From positions 1-13,663 of the forward strand of contig CAJMDR010000025.1 in the NCBI GenBank assembly GCA_905212215.1: a DNA stretch of 13,663 bases, in the 5' to 3' direction. Under the pieces are notes generated by a model that saw only the letters and a program-made list of their open reading frames with translations, did not search any database and was not told the DNA's origin. The translations under genes and the position numbers were made by a program. Position 1 is the first letter of the stretch, and the number at the start of each line of letters is the position of its first letter. Source of the stretch: an uncultured Porphyromonadaceae bacterium (GTDB taxonomy: Bacteria; Bacteroidota; Bacteroidia; Bacteroidales; Muribaculaceae). This document shows, piece by piece, positions 1 to 13,663 of the stretch.

Positions 1-15
1 TATTTTGGTCAAAGA

Positions 16-47
16 TTTGCGTATAAGGGCAAAATTTATTAACTTTG
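16..47 (+). promoter_or_regulatory. Bacteroidota-type promoter for the tat/FHA operon
   Basis: A TTTG box at 16-19 and TAACTTTG at 40-47 are separated by 20 nt. This matches the Bacteroidota housekeeping promoter pattern (-33 TTTG, 19-21 nt, -7 TAnnTTTG). Transcription would start near 52-54, about 58 nt upstream of the tatA start codon. Inferred from consensus only. Confidence 0.7.
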
Positions 48-60
48 CATATTAAAACTG

Positions 61-89
61 AGGTGAACTGAATGAAATGCAGAACACCT
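61..89 (+). other. Stem-loop in the tatA 5' leader
   Basis: AGGTG at 61-65 pairs with CACCT at 85-89 and CTG at 68-70 pairs with CAG at 80-82, with a symmetric AA/AA internal loop between the two helices. It lies in the predicted tatA leader, just after the inferred transcription start. A 10-codon reading frame (ATG at 72, TGA ending at 104) begins inside it and ends 6 nt before tatA. Either could affect tatA translation, but the stem is short and this may be chance. Confidence 0.35.
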
Positions 90-110
90 GAACTAACACT
101 TTGAAGAATC

Positions 111-302
111 ATGATATTGGCAATGTTTGGAACTTCCGAAATACTGATAATAGCAGCCATAGTACTTTTGTTGTTCGGTGGCCGCAAGATACCTGAATTG
201 ATGCGTAGTCTCGGCAAAGGCATCAATTCATTTAAGCAAGGTATGAACGAACCTATAGAATCCACAGCTTCTACCGAGAAGAAGGAAGAGCAAAAGGATT
301 GA
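111..302 (+). CDS. tatA: Sec-independent protein translocase subunit TatA
   Basis: Pore-forming or membrane-weakening subunit of the twin-arginine translocase, which exports folded proteins across the inner membrane. The 63-aa protein has the family layout: a hydrophobic helix (about residues 8-22), the hinge FGGRKIPEL (22-30), an amphipathic helix with [11 protein letters not shown] (34-44), and a short charged tail. The length is normal for small Bacteroidota TatA proteins. An internal ATG at 123 (Met5) is an equally plausible start, because the transmembrane helix begins right after it; neither has a strong ribosome site, as is usual in this phylum. It is first in an operon with tatC and two FHA genes. 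TatB is not present, as expected for a minimal TatAC system. Identification is firm; the start is uncertain by four codons. Confidence 0.95.
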
Positions 303-314
303 CTTTAATGTCAA

Positions 315-334
315 CGTTGAAATAGATTTCAACG
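315..334 (+). other. Intergenic hairpin between tatA and tatC
   Basis: CGTTGAAA (315-322) pairs perfectly with TTTCAACG (327-334) around a TAGA tetraloop. No U-run follows, so it is not a classical intrinsic terminator. By position it could be an RNA-processing or stability element that sets more TatA than TatC, a ratio known from other Tat systems. That role is inference. Confidence 0.5.
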
Positions 335-367
335 CTGCACGCTTTATATTTCTGAATAGCCCTGTGC

Positions 368-1198
368 ATGGACGATAACCGACAGGCTGACAACAAAGCC
401 ATAATGTCAATGGGCGACCATCTGGAAGAATTACGCCGGGTGGTAGTGCGTTGTCTTGTTATGGTTACAGTGTTCGGAGTTGCAGCTTTCTTTTTCAAGG
501 AAAGTGTGTTCGGAATCATCATGGCTCCGCTAAAACCTGACTTTATTACTTTCAGCGGATTGCGTGAAATGTTGGCAATGTTCGGTGCCACACTTGATGT
601 CGTCAGTACTCCGCAGGTAATAGCGACCGACATTTCAAGTCAGTTCATGGCACATCTTTCCATGTCGCTGTATATAGGTTTATTGCTTGCTTCACCATAT
701 ATCGGTTATCAGCTATTGGGATATGTCCTTCCGGCATTATATGAAAATGAGAAACGTTATGCTTCACGGCTTAGCTTAAGCATTTACAGTCTTTTCATTG
801 CCGGCTTGCTGATTTCATATTTTGTAATGTTCCCTGTGTCATGCCATTTTCTGGCTACCTACAGTGTCTCGCCGCAGGTTACCACTATGGTAGACATTAG
901 TTCCTATCTGACACTCTTCATGACCCTGAGCCTGATGTTAGCTCTTGTTTTTCAGCTCCCGGTAGTAATCTGGCTTCTCAGTAAAGCCGGAATAGTGAAC
1001 AGTGTCATGCTTCGTTCTCACCGCAAACATTGTTTTGTGGCGATACTGATAACAGCAGCAATGATAACACCACCTGATGCCATGAGCATGTTACTCGTAG
1101 CATTACCGTTGTATCTGCTTTTTGAAGTCAGTATCCTGGTGAGTTCCCGTGTGTATAAGAAAAGTAATGTTAATGCCTTAACGTCCGCAATAGATTAA
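368..1198 (+). CDS. tatC: Sec-independent protein translocase subunit TatC
   Basis: Polytopic inner-membrane receptor of the Tat pathway, which recognises the twin-arginine signal. The 276-aa sequence carries the N-terminal signature HLEELRR (18-24), the cytoplasmic-loop block LPALYENEKR (121-130, with Glu128 aligning to the signal-binding glutamate known as Glu103 in E. coli), and the C-terminal ITPPDAMS block (233-240) followed by a LLFE stretch. Hydrophobic segments at about 26-44, 98-121, 137-158, 181-206, 223-233 and 240-259 fit six membrane helices. Length is typical for the family. It lies 65 nt after tatA and its stop is 1 nt before the next gene, so it is very likely translated from the same mRNA as the FHA proteins. 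That link between Tat and a phospho-peptide reader is unusual. Confidence 0.96.
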   Translation: MDDNRQADNKAIMSMGDHLEELRRVVVRCLVMVTVFGVAAFFFKESVFGIIMAPLKPDFITFSGLREMLAMFGATLDVVSTPQVIATDISSQFMAHLSMSLYIGLLLASPYIGYQLLGYVLPALYENEKRYASRLSLSIYSLFIAGLLISYFVMFPVSCHFLATYSVSPQVTTMVDISSYLTLFMTLSLMLALVFQLPVVIWLLSKAGIVNSVMLRSHRKHCFVAILITAAMITPPDAMSMLLVALPLYLLFEVSILVSSRVYKKSNVNALTSAID

Positions 1199-1199
1199 A

Positions 1200-1973
1200 A
1201 TGAACCAAGAGAAAATACAGGTATCGTTCGATTGTCCTAACTGTCATGCGAAAAAGAAACTGCGCAAGTTACCGGAAATGAAAAGCGGCCTTATAAGCTG
1301 CCCGGAGTGCGGCACCAAACTTCGCTTGGAGTTCGATATCACTGTCACCCCCCAGACCTGTAAAGCATATATTGCCAATGCAGCTCCATCGCAGAGCAAT
1401 CAGCAAAGTGGCAATGCAGCAAAGCCAAACAAAGAGAAGACCATGTACAAGCCTCTTGGCGGCAATATGGGCGCGGAAGGTAATCAGCGGATGCAACCTA
1501 ATGTTTCATCGAATATGAATCAAGGAGGCAACGTCGAAAAAAGGACCATGGATTTGCGAGCCATGGGACAAGGGAGCGGAGGTTATGAACGACAATTCGT
1601 TCCAGGCGGCCAGATGCCTGTGAACGGGCCTCGTCTCAGAGAAAATATCTTCATAACCCGACTTGGCGGATTTATGGGCAAAACACCTATGGAGAAGTTC
1701 CAGATTTTCGATGGGAATATTACCATAGGACGAGAAGACCCGGAACAACAGAGCGACATCATGTTCAACCATGACCCGGAGATGAGCCGCCGATCCATTA
1801 TGATAACAATCATTCCGGATCCCCGCGGAACAATATGTCGGCTTAAGGTGCTTAAGTCCACTAATCCTATAATAGTCGGCCAGCGCCAACTTGTACATGG
1901 GGAAGAGGTGGCACTCCGTTTCGGCGATGTAATAACCTTGGGTAGAACTAAACTGCTTTTCAGTAATCAGTGA
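1200..1973 (+). CDS. Zinc-ribbon and FHA domain protein
   Basis: A 257-aa soluble protein, probably cytoplasmic. An N-terminal zinc ribbon has Cys12-x2-Cys15 and Cys34-x2-Cys37, resembling MJ0042-type ribbons. A Gly/Asn/Met/Gln-rich, probably disordered linker follows (about 60-150). The C-terminus (about 165-256) is an FHA domain, a fold that binds phospho-threonine peptides: ITIGRE at 175-180, MSRRSI at 195-200, and LRFGDVITLG at 239-248. The usual S-x-x-H motif reads SRRS, so the structural histidine is missing, while the Arg178 and Ser196 positions expected to contact phosphate remain. There is no signal peptide or membrane segment. It starts 1 nt after tatC. With kinases and a PP2C encoded opposite, it is a candidate reader of their marks; the specific partner is unknown. 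Confidence 0.85.
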   Translation: MNQEKIQVSFDCPNCHAKKKLRKLPEMKSGLISCPECGTKLRLEFDITVTPQTCKAYIANAAPSQSNQQSGNAAKPNKEKTMYKPLGGNMGAEGNQRMQPNVSSNMNQGGNVEKRTMDLRAMGQGSGGYERQFVPGGQMPVNGPRLRENIFITRLGGFMGKTPMEKFQIFDGNITIGREDPEQQSDIMFNHDPEMSRRSIMITIIPDPRGTICRLKVLKSTNPIIVGQRQLVHGEEVALRFGDVITLGRTKLLFSNQ

Positions 1974-2002
1974 AAAATCTTGACCTGTAAAAAAAGTGAG
2001 AA

Positions 2003-2827
2003 ATGTCTGAATTACAGTCTTCAGTATTCATAGGTCGCGATCCGAACACTTCCAGATTAGGAGTATTCAAGAGTCCTACAAGTCTTACTTTGCTGGACGA
2101 GATTGCCGACAATTGTGTAAGCCGTTATAAACCCAAGGAGCAGACAGCGCATTGTCGCCTTGAGTTTTATACTGACGGACAGCTCAAACTGATAAATCTA
2201 AATCCTCAGAATGTAACTTACGTCAATGGCCAGCCCATCGAAAAGGCATGGATAGACGATGATTCAATCATAGAATTAGGTTATAACCGTTACCGTCTGC
2301 CCTTCAAACAACTCCTGAAGAAGATCAAGTGGTCGAAGCCTTATTCCATTAATCATCTGCAAGGCATTTATCAGGATTATCAGGACGAACTGACGGAATT
2401 ACAACTCAAGCTACAGAAAGAAAGCAACAAACAGCGTCTTCAAGGCATTTTTACCCAGTTGGGAATGCTTGTGTGGTTTTTGCCGGAGAGTCTGGTAGGT
2501 TCTATGGCCTTGCCGATTAAGATTATATGCACAGTCATAACATTGGCAATCGGCATATATTTCTACGTCCGCAGCATGAACCCGCAGAATACCTTTGTGA
2601 TGCGCAAGAAGGATGTAGATACCAAATTAAAGGATAGATATCGCTGTCCCAATCCAGAATGTGACAGACCTTTCCCCGTCACTCTTTCCTATGAAAGCCT
2701 TGAGATGCAGAGAAAATGTCCTTTCTGTGGCTGCAAATATGTTGTCAAGAAAAGCGATATGTACGTTAACCATGGTTACCCACAGCCATACATACAGCAA
2801 AACGGCTATAACTTAGCCTATCACTAA
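2003..2827 (+). CDS. FHA domain protein with membrane hairpin and C-terminal zinc ribbon
   Basis: A 274-aa inner-membrane protein. Residues about 5-100 look like a divergent FHA domain: VFIGRDP (8-14, Gly11-Arg12), TAHCRLEF (48-55) at the S-x-x-H position with His50 kept, and VNGQPI (74-79) at the Asn-Gly position. A charged, coiled-coil-prone stretch (115-147) leads into two hydrophobic segments (about 150-168 and 170-190), which would form a hairpin leaving both ends in the cytoplasm. The C-terminus has a zinc ribbon, Cys215-x4-Cys220 and Cys239-x2-Cys242, with Cys244 nearby. The order FHA, membrane, ribbon mirrors the ribbon, linker, FHA order of the preceding protein. It is 29 nt downstream of that gene and last in the operon. 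FHA assignment is moderately sure; no enzymatic role is visible. Confidence 0.78.
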   Translation: MSELQSSVFIGRDPNTSRLGVFKSPTSLTLLDEIADNCVSRYKPKEQTAHCRLEFYTDGQLKLINLNPQNVTYVNGQPIEKAWIDDDSIIELGYNRYRLPFKQLLKKIKWSKPYSINHLQGIYQDYQDELTELQLKLQKESNKQRLQGIFTQLGMLVWFLPESLVGSMALPIKIICTVITLAIGIYFYVRSMNPQNTFVMRKKDVDTKLKDRYRCPNPECDRPFPVTLSYESLEMQRKCPFCGCKYVVKKSDMYVNHGYPQPYIQQNGYNLAYH

Positions 2828-2846
2828 ATTTGACATCCAGTAATAC

Positions 2847-2888
2847 AAGCGCGGCTGAGACAAATCTTCTTTTATCTCAGCCGCGCTT
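2847..2888 (+). terminator. Intrinsic terminator between convergent operons
   Basis: A perfect 14-bp GC-rich stem (2847-2860 with 2875-2888) encloses a 14-nt loop. On the plus strand a U/A-rich tract (TTTATAATTATAA) follows, so it should end the tat/FHA transcript. The same hairpin forms on the minus strand, where the U-run is poor, so it may also protect or end the facing operon's transcript. Confidence 0.85.
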
Positions 2889-2903
2889 TATAATTATAAT
2901 GGA

Positions 2904-3299
2904 CTAATCGAAATGGGTGTAGGTGTTGTTGGAGGAGGGTTGAGGTTTAACCGGTTGAACGGGCTTGGGTTTAGAAGGTACCGACTCTGGTTTCGGAGAA
3001 GGTTTGGAAGTCGTCGTCTTACTTTCCTTCTTATTCGCTGGTTTTGCTGCCGGAGAATCTTTGGCGGTATTGGTCGGAATGTTTACATTTTCCGTCTCTT
3101 GAGATTCTGATTCTGGGAATGTATTAGTATATGCGGCGGGACCCACATTGGCTGCTAATTTTTGATTTGCCGGTTCCTTGTCGCTTTTACTGCAACTGCT
3201 GAGCATGGAGCTTCCTATGGTGATTGCGGTTGCTCCAGCCATTATGCCTATTCTCTTTAAGGCTGCACGACGACGTTGTTGAAGATTTTCTTTATTCAT
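2904..3299 (-). CDS. Small putative lipoprotein with a twin-arginine signal
   Basis: A 131-aa exported protein of unrecognised family. The N-terminus has an arginine-rich n-region, QQRRRAALKRIG (7-18), which fits the Tat pattern RRxxLK, then a weakly hydrophobic helix (17-33) and a lipobox LSSC with Cys36 as the likely lipidated residue. The mature part (37-131) is low-complexity, rich in Lys, Pro, Ser and Thr with many KP/PK pairs, likely extended and disordered. The last residues are aromatic (TYTHFD). No enzyme motif is visible. It begins 5 nt after the small Cys-cluster gene, which itself follows a radical SAM gene by 13 nt, so co-expression is likely. It faces the tat operon across a shared terminator. 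I infer that it could be a Tat substrate and perhaps a substrate of the radical SAM enzyme; neither is shown by the sequence. Confidence 0.8.
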   Translation of the reverse strand: MNKENLQQRRRAALKRIGIMAGATAITIGSSMLSSCSKSDKEPANQKLAANVGPAAYTNTFPESESQETENVNIPTNTAKDSPAAKPANKKESKTTTSKPSPKPESVPSKPKPVQPVKPQPSSNNTYTHFD

Positions 3300-3304
3300 G
3301 GTTT

Positions 3305-3751
3305 TTAATATTTCTCGTTTATTGTTGCTCGAGAAGAGAAGAGAGATTCAGCATCTTGAATTTCTCCCATCAGTTCAAGACACTTTTTCCCGGGCAACGG
3401 TTTATTTTTACAGAAAACTATGCCGCAAAGATTATTATAAGTACAGCCCTTGCATTTTCTGTTTTCTACTGTAAACTTATCATTAAGATTCTCATGAATC
3501 TCACTGAAAGGTGCAATATTGCCATGAGGAAGAGGGGTATAATAATAGTAAGTAATAATTTCGAAGAGAGCTTCCAACGACTCCGGTCTTTTGTTAAATG
3601 TAATGATTACATTTTTATCAAGTGAAGATGCTATGATTGCTTTAGCTGCACTTTCATCTCCATTATAATCAATAATAATAGAGTCGTTGCAGTCTTTAAG
3701 TCTTTCGAGATTTTCTGCGGTGAAGAATGTGTACAATTCTCTTGAAACCAT
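3305..3751 (-). CDS. Small five-cysteine protein, putative partner of the radical SAM enzyme
   Basis: A 148-aa protein I do not recognise. Residues about 1-95 look like an alpha/beta domain with an acidic surface and no obvious catalytic motif. Near the C-terminus is a cysteine cluster, Cys100-x2-Cys103-x5-Cys109-x4-Cys114-x9-Cys124. This resembles the C-x2-C-x5-C-x3-C auxiliary iron-sulfur cluster motif at the end of SPASM domains and nearly matches the cluster of the enzyme encoded just upstream. There is no CxxxCxxC radical SAM core, signal peptide or membrane segment. It is sandwiched between the radical SAM gene (13 nt) and the lipoprotein gene (5 nt). It may be a substrate-recognition or Fe-S partner of the maturase, or the remnant of a second SPASM protein. 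Base composition is more AT-rich than the flanking kinases. Confidence 0.75.
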   Translation of the reverse strand: MVSRELYTFFTAENLERLKDCNDSIIIDYNGDESAAKAIIASSLDKNVIITFNKRPESLEALFEIITYYYYTPLPHGNIAPFSEIHENLNDKFTVENRKCKGCTYNNLCGIVFCKNKPLPGKKCLELMGEIQDAESLFSSRATINEKY

Positions 3752-3764
3752 ATATTTCTCCCTT

Positions 3765-4742
3765 TTAATTCATTATGTTTCCATTCTTCCTTTTCAGAAT
3801 ATGACTCAAACAGCCACCATCACATATTTCTTTATGTGAACAGTCAGAACACTCTTTGAATATGCCATTGTTTTGTCTAATGCTTCGGCTATAATCTTTG
3901 AAATGTTCTTTCAGTTCAGCAAAGGAGTTAAATTCAAAGAGGGAGACACAGTGCACATTCTCTAACGGGAAACAGTTCCAAGCAAGCATTTCTGGTGAAA
4001 TATCAATTGCTGAACCACATTTGAATCTCATTCCGGAAGGGTTATGTCGATACAGCACGCCGAGAGCATCATCAGAAAATGCACATAAAGGGAATCCGCA
4101 ATCCATAGATATTTTCATGCCTGCATTTTCCAGCATAGGGATAGCCTTGACAAGGTCATCAGCCATGGACTTCATTATAGCCTTATTGGGAGGCAAGCAG
4201 TTATTTTCCGTTCCGGGAATTGGATGTGCCAGACCAATCCGAAGCGATGGCTGCAGATTGAAACGACTCTTTGCCTCTACAACATAATCATAGCTAAAAC
4301 CTTGTCGGTAAATATTTATGCCGAGAGAACAGAAAGGAGCACATGCCTCAAGAAAGGCATCAATTCTTTGTATCTCAGCAGGAGCCGTATTATCCGGATT
4401 ATTGTAATTGACAACAATATTAAGCTCTCGGGGAGAAAGATATTTCAAATCCTCCTTGATGGATTCAAGATTGGAAGGAGAGGTTATGCCAGAGGTGAAA
4501 ATTGTTACATTTAGACCTCTTAAAGTCAGATATTTGGCAATCGCCATACACTGCGGATGCAGCAACGGTTCACCTCCGAGGAGCGAGACCGAGGATTCAC
4601 CACCGGCAATCAGAAAATCAGTTATATACACCAGATTTTCCAATGTTAATAAATCAGTAGGTGGTGCTGTTTCTATGTGCTGTTTGGCAAAACAGTACGG
4701 ACAACTGCGCACACACCTATTTGTGAGGAGAATATTGGCCAT
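3765..4742 (-). CDS. Radical SAM/SPASM domain protein, putative peptide or protein maturase
   Basis: A cytoplasmic iron-sulfur enzyme that would cleave S-adenosylmethionine to make a 5'-deoxyadenosyl radical. The 325-aa sequence starts almost directly with the core motif Cys10-x3-Cys14-x2-Cys17 (CPYC context), followed by LLGGEPLLHP (54-63), the family's SAM-binding GGE motif. The C-terminal part has SPASM-type cysteines: Cys242 and Cys257 spaced by 14, then Cys298-x2-Cys301-x5-Cys307-x3-Cys311; Cys215 and Cys220 add to the set. SPASM enzymes commonly modify ribosomal peptides or proteins (peptide maturases, anaerobic sulfatase maturases), so the substrate here is probably a protein. No sulfatase is encoded nearby. 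It starts 15 nt after the FGE-like kinase gene and is followed by the five-cysteine protein and the Tat-type lipoprotein. Family assignment is firm; the reaction is unknown. Confidence 0.9.
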   Translation of the reverse strand: MANILLTNRCVRSCPYCFAKQHIETAPPTDLLTLENLVYITDFLIAGGESSVSLLGGEPLLHPQCMAIAKYLTLRGLNVTIFTSGITSPSNLESIKEDLKYLSPRELNIVVNYNNPDNTAPAEIQRIDAFLEACAPFCSLGINIYRQGFSYDYVVEAKSRFNLQPSLRIGLAHPIPGTENNCLPPNKAIMKSMADDLVKAIPMLENAGMKISMDCGFPLCAFSDDALGVLYRHNPSGMRFKCGSAIDISPEMLAWNCFPLENVHCVSLFEFNSFAELKEHFKDYSRSIRQNNGIFKECSDCSHKEICDGGCLSHILKRKNGNIMN

Positions 4743-4757
4743 AAATCAGCTCCAATG

Positions 4758-7355
4758 CTATTTCATAACTACACGTAAACCAAAGGCCGGCGACTTTTTA
4801 GCCTTGTCGTAGCTTGCCTTGGCAGTGGTACGTACGGCATTAGGTTCGGAATCATAGTAACCGCCACGGAGCACATGGCTGGCATTATTGTCCGGGGAGT
4901 TGCCATTGGTATCTGTGTAGACATCCTCGCACCATTCAATAACATTTCCTGCCATGTCATATATTCCTAACACACTTGCTTCTTTCTGGGCAACTGGATG
5001 TATGGTGTTTGCCGAGTTCGATTTCAGCCAACCCAAAGTTGCCGGATCCTGACTCGTTCCGGCATAAAGTGCATTAGGATTTCCGGGCTGCATCTTTGCA
5101 GCATACTCCCATTGAAGTTCTGTCGGTAATGTGAACGTCTTGCCAGTTGTGGCGTTGAGCTTTGTTATGAAACTCTGTGCGTCTTCCCAACTGATATTGT
5201 TGACCGGGAGATCGTCACCCTTCACAGTTGAAGGGTTCGTTCCCATAATGCTTTGCCACAGCTTCTGTGTAACCTCGGTCTGGCCAATGGTAAATGCCGC
5301 TACATTCTCCTTTTTGTTGTCAAGTTTGGGATCCTGGGCTATGTCATAACCTAAAGTCATGGTTCCGGAAGGCACCTTCACCATTACCAACGGTATATCA
5401 TTGACCATGACAGTGTCGGTTACGGGCTTGTAAGCTGTTATCGTCTCCGGAGAAGCTTCCTCAGGTCCATTAGACTTTGACAGCCATAAAGCTATGCCAG
5501 TAATTGCTGCGACTCCCACTATACCTCCGGCAATTGCAAACATCAAATTCTTCTTGCGTGAAGGCTGCTGAATCGGTTGGGTCTCTTCTTTTGCAGGTAC
5601 ATTTACTATGGTTGCAGTTTCCTCTTCCGGTTCATAATCCTCAGAAATAATCGTAGATGAGTCCGATGCTTCTTCCTGCACCTCATCTGCTTCCTTAGAC
5701 TTCTGTTGTGTTTCTTGCTGTTCCTGAACTTTAGGCGCTTTATTAGACTTCTTTCCTTTTTTAGACTTGGAAGCCTTTAAATTAGTATTGCCTGTAACTT
5801 TTTCAGAAACAGAAGCTATTTCTGCCAGCTCATTTCCGGCAACAGGATACTCTTCTGTTTCATGAGGGGCGTTTGCCTCTGAAGAATCTTGTGTAGAAGT
5901 TTCTTCCTGCCTATCTTTATTTTCAGGCAGAACAGAAGTTTTTACAGTTTCTTCTTCAGTTGCACATTCTTCGTCTTTCTCTAGATTGAAATTACGAGTT
6001 TTTCTCTTCTGTTCAGGAGCGGGAACAACAACGGTCTCGGAAGAATCTGCATCTTCGGCTTTATTAAGATCAAACTTGCGGGCTTTTCTTTTCTTTTTAG
6101 GCTGAGGTTCAGGAATCTGAGTCTCGGAAGAACTTATTTCAGTTTCTTGTATTGGTTCTTCCTGTGCGGAAGACTGGTTCTGACTAATATCTTCAGGCGT
6201 TTCAACTGAATTTTCAGCCGGAACGTCATCCTCAGTTTCATTTATTGCAGAAGAATTGGCTATTACAGTCTCTTCCTCTAACGGATTTCCTGTTACCTGG
6301 TCTGCATCAGAATATTCATTGTCCTCCATGAAGTCTTCGTCAGGAATGATTTCCATCTCTTCCTGATTAAACTCTTCTTCTTCATTTTGCTCCTCTTGTT
6401 GCAGGTACTCCTCCTGATTTTGAAGATAATCCTCATTACTCCGGGGATAATCTTCGTTGTCCTGCGGATATTCATCCGCATAATTCTGGAGATATATCTC
6501 AGGAATCTCGTCCGACAACACCATATATCGAATCTGGCTTGCCGAAGGACGGAGGTTCATGTCGCGTTTTGTACACCAGTCGATTATCCACCTCATCCTT
6601 GGATAAGGAATGGGGGAGAGGTCTATTGTCACCTCCGGATAATTCTGCATCTGGTTACCGGTAGAAATTTCACCATAAGGCAATGTACCGGTAATTATTT
6701 CATATAATGTAAGACCGAAGCTGAAAATATCACCTTTGGCATCTGCTACACGGTCTTCAGGATTCTGCGAGAATTTCTCTGGTGGTGCGTAAGCGGGAGT
6801 CATGCTTGTCTGCTGCGCACGACCGCTAAGCCTGTTATTGAGATTTACCCATGTATTCTTGCTAATACCGAAGTCGCTAAGTTTAAAGACACATGTTCCA
6901 TCTTCATTATATGCGGTAAGTATGTTTGCAGGTTTAATATCCTGATGTACCAAGTGTCTGTTATGAAGGAAATCAAGACCCATGCTCACGTCCATTACCA
7001 TGGCCATGAGGTCCGCTTCACTTAATTTGCCTAAATTACGGTCAAGGCTGCTTCCGGCACAATACTGCATTATTAAGTAAGGAATACCGTCCCAAAGGTC
7101 AAAATGCTCTGCCTTAAGAATATTGGGATGGTTAAGGTCTTTCATCTGGGAATACTCTTTTGCTAAGTTCCCGAGATCTTCTTCATTTAGCTTGGAGAAA
7201 ATTTTTATAGCGATATATTGATTGGTGTATGTATCAAGTGCTTTCCATACTTCGGCAAAGCCACCTATACCAATCACTTCTTCAAGACGATAGCGTTTGC
7301 TTTGTGTAAAGAAGTCGCCTTCGCGAAAATTATAGTTAGTATTGTTAGAGTTCAT
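4758..7355 (-). CDS. Membrane Ser/Thr protein kinase with C-terminal FGE/SUMF1-like domain
   Basis: An 865-aa Hanks-type kinase. The cytoplasmic kinase domain (about 22-280) has GIGGFAEVW (29-37), Lys51, Glu67, HQDIKPAN (137-144), DFG (161-163), PPE (191-193) and GDIFSFG (208-214). A 320-aa, very acidic linker follows, with heptapeptide repeats (296-323) and two basic-then-acidic repeats (about 421-448 and 450-477). One membrane helix (about 603-625) precedes an extracytoplasmic domain (640-865) with hallmarks of the formylglycine-generating-enzyme fold: LPTELQWEYAA (743-753), MAGNVIEWCEDVY (801-813), VLRGG (828-832) and FGLRVV (858-863). The paired cysteines that make true FGE catalytic are absent near its C-terminus, so a sensing or binding role is more likely. 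It starts 2 nt after the preceding kinase gene stops. Kinase plus FGE-like fusions are known in other bacteria. Confidence 0.93.
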   Translation of the reverse strand: MNSNNTNYNFREGDFFTQSKRYRLEEVIGIGGFAEVWKALDTYTNQYIAIKIFSKLNEEDLGNLAKEYSQMKDLNHPNILKAEHFDLWDGIPYLIMQYCAGSSLDRNLGKLSEADLMAMVMDVSMGLDFLHNRHLVHQDIKPANILTAYNEDGTCVFKLSDFGISKNTWVNLNNRLSGRAQQTSMTPAYAPPEKFSQNPEDRVADAKGDIFSFGLTLYEIITGTLPYGEISTGNQMQNYPEVTIDLSPIPYPRMRWIIDWCTKRDMNLRPSASQIRYMVLSDEIPEIYLQNYADEYPQDNEDYPRSNEDYLQNQEEYLQQEEQNEEEEFNQEEMEIIPDEDFMEDNEYSDADQVTGNPLEEETVIANSSAINETEDDVPAENSVETPEDISQNQSSAQEEPIQETEISSSETQIPEPQPKKKRKARKFDLNKAEDADSSETVVVPAPEQKRKTRNFNLEKDEECATEEETVKTSVLPENKDRQEETSTQDSSEANAPHETEEYPVAGNELAEIASVSEKVTGNTNLKASKSKKGKKSNKAPKVQEQQETQQKSKEADEVQEEASDSSTIISEDYEPEEETATIVNVPAKEETQPIQQPSRKKNLMFAIAGGIVGVAAITGIALWLSKSNGPEEASPETITAYKPVTDTVMVNDIPLVMVKVPSGTMTLGYDIAQDPKLDNKKENVAAFTIGQTEVTQKLWQSIMGTNPSTVKGDDLPVNNISWEDAQSFITKLNATTGKTFTLPTELQWEYAAKMQPGNPNALYAGTSQDPATLGWLKSNSANTIHPVAQKEASVLGIYDMAGNVIEWCEDVYTDTNGNSPDNNASHVLRGGYYDSEPNAVRTTAKASYDKAKKSPAFGLRVVMK
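6387..6470 (-). repeat. Degenerate 21-bp tandem repeat encoding a Tyr-acidic heptapeptide
   Basis: Within the linker of the 865-aa kinase, four consecutive seven-residue units begin at Tyr296, Tyr303, Tyr310 and Tyr317 (YPQDNED, YPRSNED, YLQNQEE, YLQQEEQ). An acidic run of Gln/Glu follows. The regular 21-nt period suggests repeat expansion. Confidence 0.7.
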
Positions 7356-7357
7356 AA

Positions 7358-8713
7358 TTACATAGATGTTGAATCGTTAGGTAATACTTCGTAAACCTCA
7401 TGTTCGGTTGTGCCAGGAGTGCTATCTGATACTTCAGTCGCTTCTTTTTTCAGGAATGAGGAACCATGATCTGAATCATCCGCAGTTTTCTGTTTATTAT
7501 CGGAATGATCTTTAACCTTAGAGGGTATTCCCATTTCAATTTTTTTAAGACTATCAAAATTGAAGTTATCCAAGAAACGGGTATGATTTTTTACCATAAT
7601 ATAGCCTATAATAATTAAAGCTATTACAATAACAAAAAATACCCAATATTTCAGACTTGATTTTTTCTTCTTCTTATTATTGTTGACTGCTTTCTGTTCA
7701 TATTTGTCATACTCAATACGCTGTGTATGCGTAGCATGAATATCCTCATTACTTTTAGCTTTGTCATTGACATAACCATTGGATGAACCAGTATTGTCAA
7801 CTCTCTTCACTTTTACTGAAGGTGCTTCATGAAATGGGCCGTAAGAGGTTTTAGGTCCGTTTTGCGCATTTTGAACTTGTTGCGCGTTTTTACCATCAAG
7901 AAGCTGTTTAAGCTGTGAAGCATTCGGACGTTTTCCAGGATTAGCCTGCAAACACGCAGCAATGATGTTCCTTAGCCTATTATCAGAGATCTCAGAGAAG
8001 TCTATTTTGACCTCAGGATGGTAGAACAATTCACGGCCTGTGTCAAGGTCATCGAACGGCAGATGACCAGTCAATAACTCATAAGCAGTAATTCCAAGTG
8101 AAAAGATATCACCTTTAGGGTTGGGAAGGCGTTCTTCGCGACGAGGTGAGAATTTTTCAGGTGGTGCATAAGCGTATGTCAGACAGTCCCCCTTTCCGGC
8201 ATCTTTTACGCTCTGGCTGAGACGAGTCCGGCTTTTGGATGATATACCGAAATCGCTTAGTACATATTGGGTTATATTATCGGAGTGGTCTACAAGTATA
8301 TTTGCAGGCTTGATGTCCTGATGGATCAGATTACGCTGATGGATGTACTCAAGTGCTCTGGTTATATGACGCATCATGGCCATAACCTCGGAAGGATTCA
8401 ATAATCCCACTTTGCCCGCAAGATTACCACCATCGGCGAACTTCATTACCAGATAGGGATTGTTGCCTATCCTGTCGAAATGTTCAGCTCTGATAATGGC
8501 AGGATGAGAGATGTCCTGAACAGTACGATATTCTGAGGCGAGATCCTGGATGCTCTGGTCGTCGAGATTGGTAAAAATCTTCAGAGCTACGGAAGTGTTG
8601 GTGAGAGTGTCGTAAGCACGCCATACAACAGCGAAGCCACCGGCACCGAGAAATTTCTCAAGCCGGTAGCGTTCTGCGAATAAGTATCCTGTTTCCAGCA
8701 AGCTTTGAATCAT
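7358..8713 (-). CDS. Membrane Ser/Thr protein kinase (short form)
   Basis: A 451-aa Hanks-type kinase anchored in the inner membrane. The kinase domain (about 16-273) has GAGGFAVVW (23-31), Lys45, Glu61, HQDIKPAN (131-138), DFG (154-156), PPE (184-186) and GDIFSLG (201-207). A polar linker with a lysine-rich stop (347-351) leads to a single transmembrane helix (about 355-374). The remaining 77 extracytoplasmic residues are polar, rich in Ser, Asp and Lys, and show no recognised domain; PASTA repeats are absent. The catalytic loop reads HQD rather than HRD, as in both neighbouring kinases. The gene begins 65 nt after the PP2C stop, with no promoter-like element that I can find, and ends 2 nt before the next kinase, so it is likely co-transcribed. 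Substrates are unknown; the FHA proteins and sister kinases are natural candidates. Confidence 0.93.
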   Translation of the reverse strand: MIQSLLETGYLFAERYRLEKFLGAGGFAVVWRAYDTLTNTSVALKIFTNLDDQSIQDLASEYRTVQDISHPAIIRAEHFDRIGNNPYLVMKFADGGNLAGKVGLLNPSEVMAMMRHITRALEYIHQRNLIHQDIKPANILVDHSDNITQYVLSDFGISSKSRTRLSQSVKDAGKGDCLTYAYAPPEKFSPRREERLPNPKGDIFSLGITAYELLTGHLPFDDLDTGRELFYHPEVKIDFSEISDNRLRNIIAACLQANPGKRPNASQLKQLLDGKNAQQVQNAQNGPKTSYGPFHEAPSVKVKRVDNTGSSNGYVNDKAKSNEDIHATHTQRIEYDKYEQKAVNNNKKKKKSSLKYWVFFVIVIALIIIGYIMVKNHTRFLDNFNFDSLKKIEMGIPSKVKDHSDNKQKTADDSDHGSSFLKKEATEVSDSTPGTTEHEVYEVLPNDSTSM

Positions 8714-8778
8714 CAGCTAATCAGAGATATAGCCTTATAACTGAACCGATTTAAAATTTATAGAGTAGTGCCTCAATT

Positions 8779-10443
8779 TCAATTTTGGGGTTCTTTAGTA
8801 GGACCCATTGGCCTGCTTTTCTTCGGTTCTTTTGGTTTGGCAGACTGCTCTGCGGAAGATTGATGCGGTGTCTCGTGAGTCTCAATATTGCCTCCGGTCT
8901 TTTTAGGATCTTGTTTCTTTTCCTCGCGATTCTTTGTAGACCGTTTGGCTTCGGGCTTTTTACCGGATGGTATAGCAGGATTTGCCTGAGTCGGAATAGA
9001 CCTCGGCTCGTTGAAGGCTTCTGACTCCGTACGGTGAAGTAGTTCAGTGCAGTGGAGCTTTAACTCTTCTACAATAGTACGCTGTTTATCAGAGAGGTTC
9101 TGATTCTCCAGATTGGAACACCTGTTCTGAAGGTCTTTGATTCTCTGTGTGAAGGAAGAAGGAATCCTGTCGTTATATTCAGCAAGTTGCTCAGAAAGGG
9201 CATTGTAATCATCTGCCAGTTTCTTCACTTCACTTGAGAAATTATTGATGTCGTCATTCTCATCATCAACAGTGACAACTTCAGCTTTCTTGTCTTTATC
9301 TTTGTTGAGAAGATAATAAACACCCACAGCACCACAGGCAACAACCAGCCCGATGATGAGGTAGAGTATTGTGTTGCGGTAAGAACTGTGTCCTGGAGGA
9401 GCGGGCATACTCTGATTTGGTAATGCTACATTCTCCGGTACAGCTGTCGTGACCCGTGCATTACTCGCGTAATTGTTGCGGGAAGGAGGAACGATTTCCG
9501 GATAGCCCTCACACTTTCCTTTCTTTGCCTCAGGTAATTCACCGGTAACACATATCACCTCTATTGTGCAGTTGTCTGTGAATCCTTTTTTATCAGCTGC
9601 TTTCCAAAGGGCATCAAGGGTATGTTTGGAGGAACCGGTATTCGCACGCATTACTTCCTCTATTTCCTCGTCGGTAAGCAACCCACAAAGACCATCGGAG
9701 CAGAGAAGGAACTCGTCAAGGTCATATACCTTATATATCCTTGTCTCAGCTTTTGCCGGTTCGCCGTTATCACCTAACGAGCGAGTGATGATATTTGAAT
9801 CGGGATGATTGAATGCCATGTGTTCCGGCAGACGGCCTGTATCGACAAGATTCTGCACATAGCTGTGGTCATGGCTAAGACGGACAAGTCCGTTAGAGGG
9901 GTTGAAACGGTAGATACGGCTGTCGCCCACCCATGCTGCAACGGCAATTTTTTTGAATATCCACAAAGCTACGATAGTGGAGCCCATTCCTCTGGTGTTG
10001 GGATTTTTGCGGGCATATTGCTTTACATCATTGTCGGCATTAACTATGGCGCTGTTCATGAATGCAGCCATGTCATCGGGTGTGGCTACATTCTGCGCCG
10101 AGACATTGGCAAACTCCCGTTGCATGCCTGCCACAACTAATTCGCTAGCCTTTTCTCCGGCATTCATGCCTCCCATACCGTCGGCAACCACGAACAAAGC
10201 GCCGTATTCTCCCAATGGTATGGTGCGGTCTGTATTGATCTCTTTTCCGCTCTGGGAGTCCTGGTTCTTGAGGTCAAGCACGCAGAAACCATTATCCTGG
10301 TTTGCCGCTCTTCCTGCTTTATCGGTGCGGAATGCCGTATTGAATTCTATTCTTGCCATTGCTATGGTGTAGGTTGTTTTCTTTTTGTTTCCTTTGGCGC
10401 TGTGCGCCGCGGTCGAAGTGAATGCTTTGTCTGATGGCGACAT
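8779..10443 (-). CDS. Membrane-anchored PP2C-type Ser/Thr protein phosphatase
   Basis: Metal-dependent phosphatase expected to reverse the kinases' phosphorylation. The catalytic domain (about 29-300 of 554) has the metal-binding and signature motifs NQDN (48-51), VVADGMGG (85-92), GMGST (152-156), WVGDSRIYRF (171-180), LSHDHS (189-194), CSDGL (248-252) and TDN (289-291). A transmembrane helix (about 358-378) leads to an extracytoplasmic, helical, coiled-coil-prone region (400-475) and a Lys/Pro/Glu-rich tail. The first 28 residues are Ser/Thr/Lys-rich and precede MARIEF at the point where PP2C domains usually begin. An ATG at 10359, with an A-rich leader, is therefore a credible alternative start giving 526 aa. 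I kept the longer frame because a promoter-like element lies immediately upstream of it, but I am unsure. It is the only phosphatase gene visible, against three kinases. Confidence 0.93.
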   Translation of the reverse strand: MSPSDKAFTSTAAHSAKGNKKKTTYTIAMARIEFNTAFRTDKAGRAANQDNGFCVLDLKNQDSQSGKEINTDRTIPLGEYGALFVVADGMGGMNAGEKASELVVAGMQREFANVSAQNVATPDDMAAFMNSAIVNADNDVKQYARKNPNTRGMGSTIVALWIFKKIAVAAWVGDSRIYRFNPSNGLVRLSHDHSYVQNLVDTGRLPEHMAFNHPDSNIITRSLGDNGEPAKAETRIYKVYDLDEFLLCSDGLCGLLTDEEIEEVMRANTGSSKHTLDALWKAADKKGFTDNCTIEVICVTGELPEAKKGKCEGYPEIVPPSRNNYASNARVTTAVPENVALPNQSMPAPPGHSSYRNTILYLIIGLVVACGAVGVYYLLNKDKDKKAEVVTVDDENDDINNFSSEVKKLADDYNALSEQLAEYNDRIPSSFTQRIKDLQNRCSNLENQNLSDKQRTIVEELKLHCTELLHRTESEAFNEPRSIPTQANPAIPSGKKPEAKRSTKNREEKKQDPKKTGGNIETHETPHQSSAEQSAKPKEPKKSRPMGPTKEPQN

Positions 10444-10457
10444 TTCACTTCATCGTG

Positions 10458-10489
10458 CAAATATACTAACTATCGCCGATACGGACAAC
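10458..10489 (-). promoter_or_regulatory. Predicted Bacteroidota-type promoter for the phosphatase and downstream genes
   Basis: Read on the minus strand, TATATTTG (10465-10458) matches the -7 element TAnnTTTG. GTTG (10489-10486), 20 nt upstream, is a 3-of-4 match to the -33 TTTG. Transcription would start near 10452. This gives a leader of roughly 10 nt for the long phosphatase start, or about 90 nt for the start at 10359. Confidence 0.55.
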
Positions 10490-10603
10490 TGTTTTTTGAT
10501 GAATGCCCTGTTTTGTCATTTAAACCGCTTGGAAAAATGTTTCAACATGAAATTGTTCCAACTGCAATACCTCAGTAAAGATTTAATCTTGTTTCCAAGT
10601 AGT

Positions 10604-12514
10604 TTATCCTCCAATGGGGGTAGAGCCGCTTAGATATGTGAAACCATCCATGCGTTCCTGAAGTTTCCTCAAACGTTCGAGCATATCGTTCAGTTGTTTT
10701 TTCTCGCCATTGCTCGATGTCTTGGAATCGCTGTATGTGCGTATCTTGTCTATCTGCTTTCTTATGTCGTTTACTATATTATACCGGTCGTTGTTAAACT
10801 TCTTCTGGCTTTTGAAAACAGTTTTGGAGAAACCATCCACCGCTTCTTTCAGAGTGTTCACCTCTGTTTCCATGGAAGTTACCTCAGTAGTCGGAATATA
10901 TATTTCATCATCCTGTGTTGTCTCCTCGGTTACTGCAGTAGAACTGTCAGACTGGTCACGAACCATATAGATGACGCCAAAAGTAATTGCTCCGGCAAGC
11001 AATGCCGAAAGCACAAGCACAAGCCATAGCCCTTTCTTGCCGGGAGTATGACGGCTTACGGACTTGATGTCCTTAGTTTTGTTGTCATTATCGGAAAAGC
11101 CGTTGTATGGATTACGTAATCCATATTGAGTCCCGTTGTCGGGATAGTATGAAGCGCGATTGAATGAATTATCCGAATCATTGACTACAGTGGCGCCATC
11201 GTTGAAAGAAGAGACAATATCCACTTTTTTCACCTTATTGGCGCCTGACTTATCTGCTCCTTTTTGCTGCTCAATCACCTCCTTTTGCTCCGAAGCAGGT
11301 TCTTCGTCCGGCTCAAGTTCAAGAACTAAATCGTCATCGTCCTCCTCATATTCCCCTTTCGGATTGTTGAACTGTGTTCGGGGATCATCATTATCATTAG
11401 CCTCTTCTTCAAAATCGGCTTCTATGACTTCTAAAGAATCATCGTCCACATCAACCATCACATCGTCGTGGTAGATGTTGGATTGGCTCTCCTCCTCTTT
11501 AGGTTTGTTTATTTCAGCTTCACCATTCAGGTCATCACCGCCGGATGTTACTACCTTGACCTTGCCGGAAATGACAGGCTTCAGACCCATATTCTCGGCA
11601 AGACGTTCCATATAACGTTCTTGCTCGCCTTCAAGATTGCCTACAGTCTTTATATTGGTGATTTCGGAGCTGCCTAACTTCTCAATGATATTCTTTGCCC
11701 AGTCAAGATACAGCTTTGCCGTTCCGCGTTCCTTGCGGTCGAAACGGAGCATCCTCGCCACCATCAGTCTCAAGGGTTCAGAGGGCAGTGAACTTAGATC
11801 CACATTCCTCACGTTCTTATACATCATCTCTTGTCCGAGAGATGTGTCGATGCCGTTCAAAGCTCCCGTAAGCTCCAGCAGAGTGACACCAAATGAGAAA
11901 ATGTCGCCTTCGGCAAAGGGTTCATGATCCTGCTGGCGGGCGCTGAACTTCTCCGGAGGCGCGTAGAAGGTAGTCATGAACTGCATGTTCTCCTTGAGGT
12001 CTCGCATGGAACGCGACATGCTGGTACGGGTACGCGAGCTGATGCCAAAGTCGCACAACACGAAATTGGCGCGGGAACTCGACGTATCGATGAGTATGTT
12101 CGCCGGCTTTATATCCTGATGGACTATATTGTTCTCGTGAAGATATGCCAACGCACTCATGATGTCGCGAACGACATAGAGCATGTCAGTAGCGGTAAAA
12201 GTACCGATATGAGTGCTGAGGTTACCTCCGGCACAGTATTTCATCTTCAGGTAAGGCCGTTTGTTACAGATAGCGAAATGCTCCGCTTTCAGGATGTTGG
12301 GATGCGAGAACGCCTCCACGTTGGCATATTCCTTCTTCAGTTGCTCAGTACCGTCAGAATCCAATTGGGCATAGATCTTGATGGCTGTCTCCTTGTCGAC
12401 AAGAGTATCGTCGACGAGCCATACCTCCGCAAAGCCACCTACGCCTATGATTTTCTTCAGGCGATAACGTTCATGAAACAGTTCTCCCGGCTTAAACGAG
12501 TGGATAGTGCGCAT
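10604..12514 (-). CDS. Membrane Ser/Thr protein kinase with helical extracytoplasmic domain
   Basis: A 636-aa Hanks-type kinase, first gene of the minus-strand cluster. The kinase domain (about 17-275) has GVGGFAEVW (24-32), Lys46, Glu62, HQDIKPAN (132-139), DFG (155-157), PPE (186-188) and GDIFSFG (203-209). The cytoplasmic linker (about 280-490) is strongly acidic, with runs of Asp/Glu at 354-405, and is likely disordered. A basic stretch (PGKKG) precedes one membrane helix (about 496-517). The extracytoplasmic end (540-625) is highly charged and predicted to form helices or a coiled coil, resembling in size and character the extracytoplasmic part of the PP2C encoded next. A 160-nt gap with a likely second promoter separates it from the phosphatase gene. 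Its ATG sits close upstream of the Gly loop, as in the two sister kinases. Confidence 0.93.
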   Translation of the reverse strand: MRTIHSFKPGELFHERYRLKKIIGVGGFAEVWLVDDTLVDKETAIKIYAQLDSDGTEQLKKEYANVEAFSHPNILKAEHFAICNKRPYLKMKYCAGGNLSTHIGTFTATDMLYVVRDIMSALAYLHENNIVHQDIKPANILIDTSSSRANFVLCDFGISSRTRTSMSRSMRDLKENMQFMTTFYAPPEKFSARQQDHEPFAEGDIFSFGVTLLELTGALNGIDTSLGQEMMYKNVRNVDLSSLPSEPLRLMVARMLRFDRKERGTAKLYLDWAKNIIEKLGSSEITNIKTVGNLEGEQERYMERLAENMGLKPVISGKVKVVTSGGDDLNGEAEINKPKEEESQSNIYHDDVMVDVDDDSLEVIEADFEEEANDNDDPRTQFNNPKGEYEEDDDDLVLELEPDEEPASEQKEVIEQQKGADKSGANKVKKVDIVSSFNDGATVVNDSDNSFNRASYYPDNGTQYGLRNPYNGFSDNDNKTKDIKSVSRHTPGKKGLWLVLVLSALLAGAITFGVIYMVRDQSDSSTAVTEETTQDDEIYIPTTEVTSMETEVNTLKEAVDGFSKTVFKSQKKFNNDRYNIVNDIRKQIDKIRTYSDSKTSSNGEKKQLNDMLERLRKLQERMDGFTYLSGSTPIGG

Positions 12515-12548
12515 TATTCCTAAATTATCTGTTTCCTCTTTTCGTCTG

Positions 12549-12556
12549 CAAAGTTA
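12549..12556 (-). promoter_or_regulatory. Possible -7 element upstream of the first kinase gene
   Basis: Read on the minus strand this is TAACTTTG, a perfect match to the TAnnTTTG -7 box and identical to the box upstream of tatA. A start near 12543 would leave a leader of about 29 nt. No convincing TTTG -33 box is found at the expected distance, so the call rests on half the pattern. Confidence 0.5.
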
Positions 12557-12667
12557 ATAAAACTTTCATAAAATGAATAATAATCCACAGGCAAATAGCA
12601 TTTCATAAACCATCCTCTCGTTACACCCTTATGTTTTTATGTCTTTCTTTCCATAAATATATACGAA

Positions 12668-12704
12668 ACAATGAGAACCGTAGGTAGTGTATGGTTCTCA
12701 TTGT
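12668..12704 (-). terminator. Hairpin terminator after clpB
   Basis: ACAATGAGAACC (12668-12679) pairs perfectly with 12693-12704 around a 13-nt loop. It lies about 30 nt beyond the clpB stop codon and is followed on the minus strand by a short U-rich stretch (TTTCGTATATATTT). It likely separates clpB transcription from the kinase cluster downstream. Confidence 0.7.
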
Positions 12705-12734
12705 CAATTTATAGTTTATGGGTGTTTCGACATA

Positions 12735-13663
12735 TTAGTTCTTGAAGACAAGGGTGTCGCCGTCACGGTCGATGGTGATGGGATGCTCGCGGTCTACCTT
12801 CCCGGCAAGAATGTCTTTTGACAACTGGTTGAGCACCATTCGCTGGATGGTACGTTTCACAGGTCGTGCGCCGAATTCGGGATCATATCCGTCTTCGGCA
12901 AGCAGTTCTTCTGCGGCCGGAGTCACATTCAGTTCAACTCCGTTACCGGCAAGAATCTTCTTGACGCTGTTGACCTGGATGTCCACGATCTTGCGGATAT
13001 CCTTCTTGTTCAGCGGCTCGAACATCACGATCTCGTCAATACGGTTCAGGAACTCCGGACGGATGGTCTGCTTGAGCATGTCCAGCACATCCTTCTTCGT
13101 GCGCTCTATCGTCTCCTCTCGGTTCTCGTCAGTGATTTTGGAGAAGTTCTCCCTTATCAGCTGCGAGCCCATGTTCGAGGTCATGATTATGATGGTGTTC
13201 TTGAAGTTGATGAAACGGCCCTTGTTATCTGTCAAACGGCCATCGTCAAGAACCTGAAGCAGGATGTTGAACACATCCGGGTTCGCTTTCTCAATCTCAT
13301 CGAAAAGCACAACGCTATATGGTTTGCGACGCACAGCTTCAGTAAGCTGACCACCTTCCTCGTAGCCTACGTATCCCGGAGGAGCTCCGACCAGGCGGCT
13401 CACAGAGTGCTTCTCCATATATTCACTCATGTCGATACGGGTCATCATGTCCTCGTCATCGAACAGATATTCCGCAAGTGCCTTTGCAAGCTCAGTCTTG
13501 CCAACACCCGTAGTACCGAGGAAGATGAAAGAACCGATAGGTCTGCGGGGATCATTCAAGCCTGCGCGAGAACGGCGTACGGCGTCGCTGACGGCCTTTA
13601 TGGCATCGTCCTGGCCCACAACCCTGCGGTGCAGCTCCTCTTCAAGGTGGAGCAGCTTCTCCT
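12735..13663 (-). CDS. clpB: ATP-dependent chaperone ClpB, C-terminal part (5' end outside window)
   Basis: Hexameric AAA+ disaggregase that pulls proteins out of aggregates together with DnaK. Only the C-terminal third is present: the end of the linker between the two ATPase modules ([15 protein letters not shown]) and the second AAA+ module with its C-terminal small domain. Visible motifs are Walker [10 protein letters not shown], the pore loop GYVGYEEGG, Walker [11 protein letters not shown], sensor 1 IIIMTSN, and sensor 2 GARPVKR. The frame stays open to the window edge, and the apparent GTG start at 13619 is an internal Val of the RRVVGQ motif. ClpB is preferred over ClpC or ClpA from the [12 protein letters not shown] linker and the C-terminal sequence. 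It has higher GC than the kinase cluster and its own terminator, and it looks like a housekeeping neighbour rather than part of the system. Confidence 0.93.

Follow-up and report, generated by a model that had tools for sequence, protein, structure and literature searches.

A radical SAM enzyme, a shortened partner and a Tat-type lipoprotein as a putative reduced form of a larger tyrosine-repeat cassette

Contig CAJMDR010000025.1 of an uncultured Porphyromonadaceae bacterium (assembly GCA_905212215.1), of which positions 1 to 13,663 were analysed and are called the window below, carries on its minus strand three consecutive open reading frames (ORFs) called as a radical S-adenosylmethionine (SAM) enzyme of 325 residues, here termed RS1, a short partner of 148 residues and a lipoprotein of 131 residues. 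We consider it probable (ca. 0.6) that RS1 and its small partner modify the lipoprotein in the cytoplasm prior to a likely export by TatA and TatC of the twin-arginine translocation (Tat) system, and that the three genes represent a reduced form of a larger cassette. A preliminary description of this DNA had pointed to three compact genes, and the ORF coordinates confirm the intergenic gaps of 13 and 5 nt. The features of the cassette are:

2904..3299, minus strand: Tat-type lipoprotein, 131 residues, putative substrate (ORF and alleles; position as in Bacteroidales relatives)
3249..3275, minus strand: RRRAALKRI leader, residues 9–17 (sequence; motif class common to relatives and unrelated Tat proteins)
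3192..3194, minus strand: predicted lipidated Cys36 of the lipobox-like LSSC (sequence motif only)
3117..3131, minus strand: Y57-T-N-T-F61, candidate modification site with one of two tyrosines, unchanged in four other close alleles
2907..2921, minus strand: Y127-T-H-F-D131, C-terminal candidate site, likewise unchanged in the four alleles
3305..3751, minus strand: short partner, 148 residues, shortened member of a ca. 289-residue pseudo-radical-SAM (PRS) family (profile comparison, hhalign)
3506..3526, minus strand: HGNIAPF, counterpart of the PRS motif HAxIEPF (alignment)
3380..3454, minus strand: five-Cys cluster C100, C103, C109, C114, C124 (alignment)
3765..4742, minus strand: RS1, radical SAM enzyme with SPASM-like C-terminus, 325 residues (ORF, profiles, alignment)
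4692..4715, minus strand: radical SAM motif CxxxCxxC (C10-x3-C14-x2-C17), invariant in 29 aligned rows
4566..4577, minus strand: GGEP of the radical SAM core, residues 56–59, invariant in 29 rows
3972..4100, minus strand: auxiliary-type cysteines C215, C220, C242 and C257, invariant in 29 rows
3810..3851, minus strand: SPASM-like C298-x2-C301-x5-C307-x3-C311 (sequence and alignment)

The gene neighbourhood of RS1 relatives

A profile scan of genome contigs with the 29-row RS1 alignment retrieved 71 loci. Their neighbouring ORFs were clustered, and hidden Markov models (HMMs) of RS1, PRS, a second radical SAM enzyme (RS2) and GT9 were built from the clusters and searched in all six frames. Scores above 60 bits were obtained with the RS1 model for 69 loci, the remaining two (L070 and L071) containing a stub only, and scores above 400 bits for 52, referred to as close loci. 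Among the latter, PRS is present in 49, RS2 in 43 and GT9 in 28, domains within fused ORFs being counted, and 42 possess an ORF with an RRxALKR-type leader and at least four tyrosines, 39 on the same strand as RS1 and three (L038, L039 and L051) on the opposite strand, which came from the control part of that count. In 35 loci the sequence extends for 1.5 kb or more upstream and 4.5 kb or more downstream; PRS occurs in 34 of these, RS2 in 30, GT9 in 20 and a same-strand leader ORF with tyrosines in 28. For the other 17 of the 69 loci, with a weaker RS1 and including the contig-end fragments L063, L066, L068 and L069, the corresponding numbers are 3, 4, 1 and 1. Because the HMM seeds stem from the same loci and the leader expression and search distances were widened once (the first count gave 48 PRS and 34 Tyr-rich), these counts describe a co-occurrence and are not an independent test of it. 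In different phyla, RS1 relatives match over nearly their full length and the same genes reappear beside them; judged by sequence comparison, the cassette is more than a chance arrangement.

The preliminary description had regarded the three genes as a unit, with the lipoprotein as substrate, and had suggested a look at their co-occurrence. The frequencies of PRS and of the leader-bearing Tyr-rich ORF beside RS1 support the lipoprotein as substrate by virtue of its position, while the sequence of its mature part adds no support. The rare co-occurrence which, according to that description, would have spoken against a unit was not observed, as 49 of the 52 close loci carry the partner family, but the three-gene set is not its usual form, since the relatives mostly add RS2, often GT9, and Tyr-rich sequence.

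PRS remained uncounted in L002, whose contig ends inside the PRS start, in L021, whose contig ends 99 nt after RS1, and in L028. RS2 is absent near RS1 in L002, L019, L021, L025, L028, L029, L031, L041 and L045; a genome-wide search detected an RS2 relative elsewhere for L021, L041 and L045 (45–48% identity), matches of 25–26% identity only in the genome of L025, and none at E 1e-10 in the genomes of L002, L019, L028, L029 and L031, some of which are drafts. RS2 and GT9 are fused into one ORF in L015, L024, L027, L033, L038 and L039, and PRS and GT9 in L019, L025 and L029, where no RS2 adjoins RS1. In the alphaproteobacterial strain Pleomorphomonas oryzae DSM 16300 (L050), RS1, PRS, RS2 and a leader-bearing repeat ORF are found together.

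The close relative L001 displays the order kinase, a 233-residue protein, RS1, PRS, RS2, GT9, a Tyr-rich ORF, TatA, two more Tyr-rich ORFs, TatC and an FHA protein related to that of the window. In the window, RS2, GT9 and Tyr repeats are absent, and the lipoprotein occupies the position which the Tyr-rich protein has in the close relatives. In an RS1 tree of 58 rows, rooted for drawing only, the window pairs with P0002 (support 100/99) inside a supported set of ten rows that contains L001 and L002. Because of this nesting, the absence of RS2 and GT9 from the window locus is most likely derived, seven of the ten rows being database proteins without known neighbours. The RS1 relatives would also place the genome of the window in the Bacteroidales. 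The window resembles a pared-down version of a larger RS1-PRS-RS2-GT9-Tyr-rich cassette.

Proteins of ca. 230 residues also adjoin the cassette in several loci (L001 2433–3134, L002 before RS1, L016 13913–14599, L026 13158–13868; clusters F38 and F51); that of L001 has no Pfam match at E ≤ 0.1.

The radical SAM enzyme RS1

RS1 carries the CxxxCxxC motif and LGGEP at residues 55–59, and Radical_SAM (PF04055) scores 51.1 bits (cut-off 29.5), which places it in the superfamily. In 29 aligned rows C10, C14, C17, C215, C220, C242, C257, C298, C301 and C307 are invariant and C311 is kept in at least 90%; the eight auxiliary cysteines end with the C-x2-C-x5-C-x3-C pattern of SPASM domains. The HMM of its own subfamily gives 418 bits, a value that is not independent as the window RS1 is among the 48 seeds. 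In a protein search, 382 of 1560 candidates passed E 0.001, and the best 120 of the 382 share 39–99% identity over 97–100% of the query. By these comparisons, RS1 is a distinct, sparse and well-conserved radical SAM subfamily.

Members occur in about a dozen phyla, as assigned from record titles and the tree, namely Bacteroidota, Ignavibacteriota, Nitrospirota, Nitrospinota, Elusimicrobiota, Spirochaetota, Chlorobiota, Thermodesulfobacteriota, Myxococcota, Armatimonadota, Pseudomonadota and others. They are rare in four overlapping genome samples, each of which contains the genome on which it was centred: 6 of 297 genomes from the family of L001's genome match at E 1e-40, G001 alone above 35% identity, 2 of 399 and 2 of 369 match in the second and fourth samples, and 6 of 393 match in an order-level sample at E 1e-60. 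The strong matches in these four samples belong to genomes already found, so that no further window-like genome emerged.

The weaker matches (five in the 297-genome and one in the 399-genome sample, 29–35% identity) show a different arrangement. The corresponding 15 kb regions L083–L088 (G167, G031, G261, G098, G092 and G662) each contain two to three neighbouring RS1-like ORFs, with PRS, RS2 and GT9 all below thresholds, and apparently represent a different system; some short frames in these regions were flagged as Tyr-rich. The remoter relatives L054, L058, L059, L061, L062 and L065, several of them beside further weak RS1-like ORFs and beside the common neighbour clusters F5, F10, F17 and F18, perhaps belong to further unnamed radical SAM systems.

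The short partner and the PRS family

With a PRS HMM from which it had been excluded, the short partner reaches 39.4 bits, compared with 5.0 for the best of 2000 shuffled sequences, and hhalign relates the two at 96.5% with E 8.7e-10. According to these profile comparisons it is a shortened PRS homologue, which retains about half of PRS. Its C100, C103, C109 and C124 correspond to conserved PRS cysteines, one extra cysteine (C21) lies outside the cluster, and CxxxCxxC is absent; the preliminary description had correctly recognized a SPASM-like cysteine cluster without a radical core. The Ser of ILSSLG and the Pro-Phe of HAxIEPF rank with the four cluster cysteines among the most conserved PRS positions. 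Full-length PRS also lacks CxxxCxxC and has a predicted radical SAM/SPASM-type fold like that of peptide maturases, and is accordingly predicted to be a pseudo-radical-SAM protein. This kinship would fit a substrate-handling function, and the aid in substrate recognition proposed in the preliminary description is kept here as a putative role.

A Foldseek search with the 148-residue partner gave no match at E ≤ 0.001, its NCBIfam matches at E ≤ 1 were confined to Cas4 and GbcA, with no pseudo-radical-SAM model among them, and PRS of L001 and L006 matched no NCBIfam family at E ≤ 0.01. Only one of 11 candidate homologues of the partner passed, the allele P0121 with 99% identity. The idea that the partner arose by copying of the RS1 C-terminus was rejected (hhalign 0.5%); the PRS and RS1 profiles do not align at the sequence level either (0.2%).

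The lipoprotein, its leader and the Tyr-rich ORFs of relatives

The search for lipoprotein homologues returned 4 of 11 candidates, all close alleles of 89–99% identity, and nothing beyond them. All allele differences fall between YTNTF and YTHFD; with such similar alleles, the unchanged Tyr sites are weak support.

The 44 counted Tyr-rich ORFs of the relatives (39 loci) contain 30% Tyr after the leader plus 15 residues. Tyr-Tyr spacings of 3 (348) are more frequent than those of 1 (316), 2 (206) and 4 (117), and the second residue after Tyr is Ser, Asn, Tyr or Asp with frequencies of 0.29, 0.26, 0.23 and 0.09. Examples are NYTNYSDYTNYTNYTNYANYSN in L015, YYNYSYSDYYNYSYSDY in L005 and the GYGVSGDYVA repeats in L050. 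A strict lipobox follows the leader in 8 of the 44 ORFs, and a Tat-type lipoprotein therefore falls within the range of the family. TIGR01409, the Tat-signal model of NCBIfam, matches one Tyr-rich ORF of L001 (17.0 versus 16.7); one of L005 is unmatched at E ≤ 0.01.

The leader ORF of L019 and L025 is short; three tyrosines follow the leader, two of them within the counted part. This ORF, SLTRREATKRIAERPD (L019 9647–9829; L025 from about 9632), lies just upstream of RS1 and shows no clear hydrophobic stretch. There, the RR leader may serve maturase recognition rather than as a Tat signal.

At the DNA level, in a form that also admits some Ser codons, the leader motif occurs in 20 of the 25 genomes found via RS1 loci (backward-read control 6 of 25) and in 45 of 149 genomes from the family of L001's genome, itself included (control 27 of 149). 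Fourteen leader loci were inspected, twelve from the 149-genome set and two from another search. Four encode the leader in frame according to a regular expression, and all four of these products are other Tat-type proteins, with no RS1 beside them in these short loci. They carry RRxALKRMG and appear flavodoxin-like by eye (L089, L094 (G005), L097 (G147) and L101 (G124)); L089, L094 and L097 have a lipobox-like Cys.

Small custom HMMs detected tatA in 7 and tatC in 4 of the 52 fetched loci. The single TatC match of G001 adjoins the cassette, as does that of G006. Of two matches in G003, one lies beside the cassette and the other elsewhere, and in other genomes tatC is located on a separate contig. 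A TatC match was found in 18 of 22 genomes, mostly drafts.

Mechanistic proposal and alternatives

We propose the following scenario. The leader would recruit RS1 and its partner in the cytoplasm, PRS or its shortened form would grip or present the substrate while RS1 makes the radical, and RS1 would cleave SAM, attack a Tyr-containing site and form a cross-link. The modified residues would most likely be Tyr57 (YTN) and/or Tyr127 (YTHF). Subsequently, the lipoprotein would be exported in a folded state by Tat and lipidated at Cys36. In full cassettes RS2 would act on the Tyr repeats, which would explain a window without both. As RS2 is nearest to cyclophane maturases and as RS2 and repeats are both missing in the window, L019 and L025, the data suggest, on three cases only, that the repeats are the target of RS2, with a separate core step performed by RS1 with PRS.

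Several observations weigh against the proposed modification and export of the lipoprotein by a reduced cassette. Of the twin-arginine lipoprotein claimed in the preliminary description, RRRAALKRI and LSSC, both seen by eye, and a hydrophobic stretch are present, but TIGR01409 does not match at E ≤ 1; Tat targeting therefore rests on motif and position. The leader was rejected as a specific mark of the system because unrelated Bacteroidales Tat proteins carry it; the RRxALKR type is a general Bacteroidales Tat signal and was for this reason counted only beside RS1. No homology was detected between the lipoprotein body and the Tyr-rich proteins. The complete radical SAM/SPASM enzyme of the preliminary description holds for the motifs and the Radical_SAM score, but the SPASM model TIGR04085 reaches 24.5 bits, below its cut-off of 27, and PF13186 (SPASM) is unlisted at E ≤ 1, which is why RS1 is labelled SPASM-like. 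On the tree, presence or absence of RS2, labelled by nearness to RS1 with L021 and L041 counting as without, does not cluster beyond shuffled labels (168 of 500 as low).

The missing parts could also signify a decaying cassette, whose remainder after loss of RS2, GT9, the Tyr repeats and half of the partner modifies nothing. The reduction of the partner to about half of PRS and the stem of window plus P0002 of 0.46 changes per column would agree with this, but RS1 retains all catalytic and auxiliary cysteines, is 58–59% identical to P0002 over its length and has an end branch of 0.31 near the tree median of 0.29, and the three ORFs are open and tightly spaced with a 99% identical partner allele (P0121); we regard decay as unlikely. 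A similarly low probability is assigned to RS1 and the partner acting on another protein of the region, such as the kinases, the FGE-domain kinase or an FHA protein, with the lipoprotein as unrelated Tat cargo. RS1 does start 15 nt after the kinase-FGE gene, and the generality of the leader would fit; however, of the 71 loci just L001 and L002 share the kinase cluster F21 with the window (other kinase clusters were not searched for), whereas most close loci have a leader-bearing Tyr-rich ORF beside RS1.

Rather unlikely, too, is a partner that serves as iron-sulfur electron carrier or structural prop for RS1 instead of handling the substrate. Its five-Cys cluster could bind an iron-sulfur cluster, and four of the five cysteines belong to the best-conserved positions of PRS, but the non-Cys positions in ILSSLG and HAxIEPF are equally conserved and PRS is predicted to adopt a whole radical SAM/SPASM-type fold and not that of a ferredoxin. 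That RS1 is a kinase-associated prokaryotic viperin, an antiviral nucleotide-making radical SAM enzyme, is hardly credible: pVip is the top PADLOC match (45.5 bits) and kinases adjoin, but this match spans only residues 2–101 of the shared radical SAM core, NF038283 scores 34.5 bits against a cut-off of 180, and RS1 has eight auxiliary-type cysteines and relatives that sit with PRS, RS2 and Tyr-rich ORFs. The viperin identity was rejected on the NF038283 cut-off and the core-only pVip match.

We tentatively consider, at somewhat less than even chance, that RS1 is the hallmark of a pan-phylum class of Tyr-repeat proteins which are exported by Tat and built by RS1/PRS, RS2 and GT9, i.e. cross-linked and glycosylated Tyr fibres which are finished in the cytoplasm and exported folded. 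The window would be its minimal version, where RS1, together with a dead partner of half the size, modifies one or two lipoprotein tyrosines. If true, this would be an unnamed, widespread maturation system in which a radical SAM enzyme acts alongside a catalytically dead relative, and it would link radical chemistry on peptides to Tat, which carries folded proteins. Natural reduced forms such as the window and the PRS-GT9 fusions without RS2 could separate the role of each enzyme. The idea is testable since the named strain DSM 16300 has RS1, PRS, RS2 and a repeat ORF.

Relation to known systems

The class of mechanism, radical SAM modification of ribosomal peptides or proteins, is already known. 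Cyclophane maturases (triceptides; DynA, DarE, GrrM/OscB, YhhB, XyeB) share with it a radical SAM/SPASM enzyme beside a small ribosomal precursor. For RS2 of L006 the DynA model scores best (163.7 bits, below the cut-off of 450), followed by anSME and DarE. PMC9062424 describes Aro-Xaa-Asn motifs of strained cyclophanes and, for radical SAM clusters that are still unstudied, precursors with Aro-Xaa-Asn or Aro-Xaa-Xaa-Asn, which are the nearest published idea found; Tyr-x-Ser/Asn/Tyr/Asp, the commonest pattern in the Tyr-rich ORFs, is comparable. RS1 itself is far off (YhhB 21.2 bits, cut-off 445), and the Tat-type leader, the pseudo-radical-SAM partner and GT9 are extra here, while the window lacks RS2.

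The His-Xaa-Ser (HXS) system HxsABCD has a repeat-rich substrate and two distinct radical SAM maturases, a layout which full RS1 cassettes resemble. They differ by Tyr repeats, Tat-type leader and GT9, and the scores are low for RS1 with HxsC (20.2 versus 267.9) and for RS2 of L006 with HxsB (65.4 versus 370). The GG-Bacteroidales radical SAM/pseudo-radical-SAM pair (TIGR04148–TIGR04150) likewise unites, in Bacteroidales, a peptide with a radical SAM maturase and its catalytically dead relative; in contrast, PRS of L001 and L006 lacks any NCBIfam match at E ≤ 0.01, and RS1/PRS extend over about a dozen phyla. TIGR04133 and TIGR04134 stand for a Bacteroidota system in which a small lipoprotein accompanies a radical SAM/SPASM gene, but TIGR04134 is not among the six NCBIfam families listed for the window lipoprotein. 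Among the best 25 of 56 NCBIfam matches of RS1, the highest score is that of MoaA with 39.9 bits (cut-off 284), and TIGR04133 shows up for RS2 of L006 only, with 41.5 bits (cut-off 425). With anSME the differences are that none of ten window proteins scanned with Pfam has a sulfatase domain, an FGE-sulfatase (sulfatase-modifying-factor-like) domain being present, and that PRS lacks the radical SAM cysteine motif.

Apart from the general Radical_SAM and Fer4_12, no listed NCBIfam or Pfam model exceeds its cut-off for RS1 or PRS, in line with the preliminary description, which had recognized no named family in this combination. Literature queries joining radical SAM with twin-arginine and precursor peptide, with Tat signal and RiPP (ribosomally synthesized and post-translationally modified peptide), or with tyrosine-rich returned nothing, and in the titles and abstract beginnings covered the cassette is neither described nor named, most subscription journals being outside coverage.

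Genomic surroundings

The cassette forms the tail of a longer minus-strand kinase/phosphatase run, ordered kinase, PP2C-type phosphatase, kinase, kinase with FGE-sulfatase domain, RS1, short partner and lipoprotein, and is convergent with plus-strand tatA-tatC:

10604–12514, minus strand: kinase (identified by PADLOC matches alone, outside the Pfam scan)
8779–10443, minus strand: PP2C-type phosphatase (Pfam)
7358–8713, minus strand: kinase (Pfam)
4758..7355, minus strand: Ser/Thr kinase fused to an FGE-sulfatase (SUMF1-like) domain, ending 15 nt before the RS1 start (ORF and Pfam)
111..302, plus strand: tatA (TIGR01411 62.9 bits, cut-off 53.9)
368..1198, plus strand: tatC (TIGR00945 165.2 bits, cut-off 132.7)
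1200–1973 and 2003–2827, plus strand: two FHA proteins downstream of tatC (HMM scans)
2845..2892, no strand: inverted repeat between the convergent runs (RNA fold)

The RNA fold of 2840–2903 on the minus strand contains an 18-pair stem of −32.1 kcal/mol (z −8.3). The inverted repeat is likely a shared terminator of both runs; a terminator scan did not list it. Positions 4758–13619 together with the FHA genes constitute a kinase/PP2C/FHA signalling cluster with three Ser/Thr kinases, and a kinase of the same cluster as that of the window is also found near RS1 in L001 and L002. Both FHA proteins contain CxxC pairs resembling zinc ribbons, and the ORF 12735–13619 resembles, by eye, the C-terminal part of a ClpB-type ATPase.

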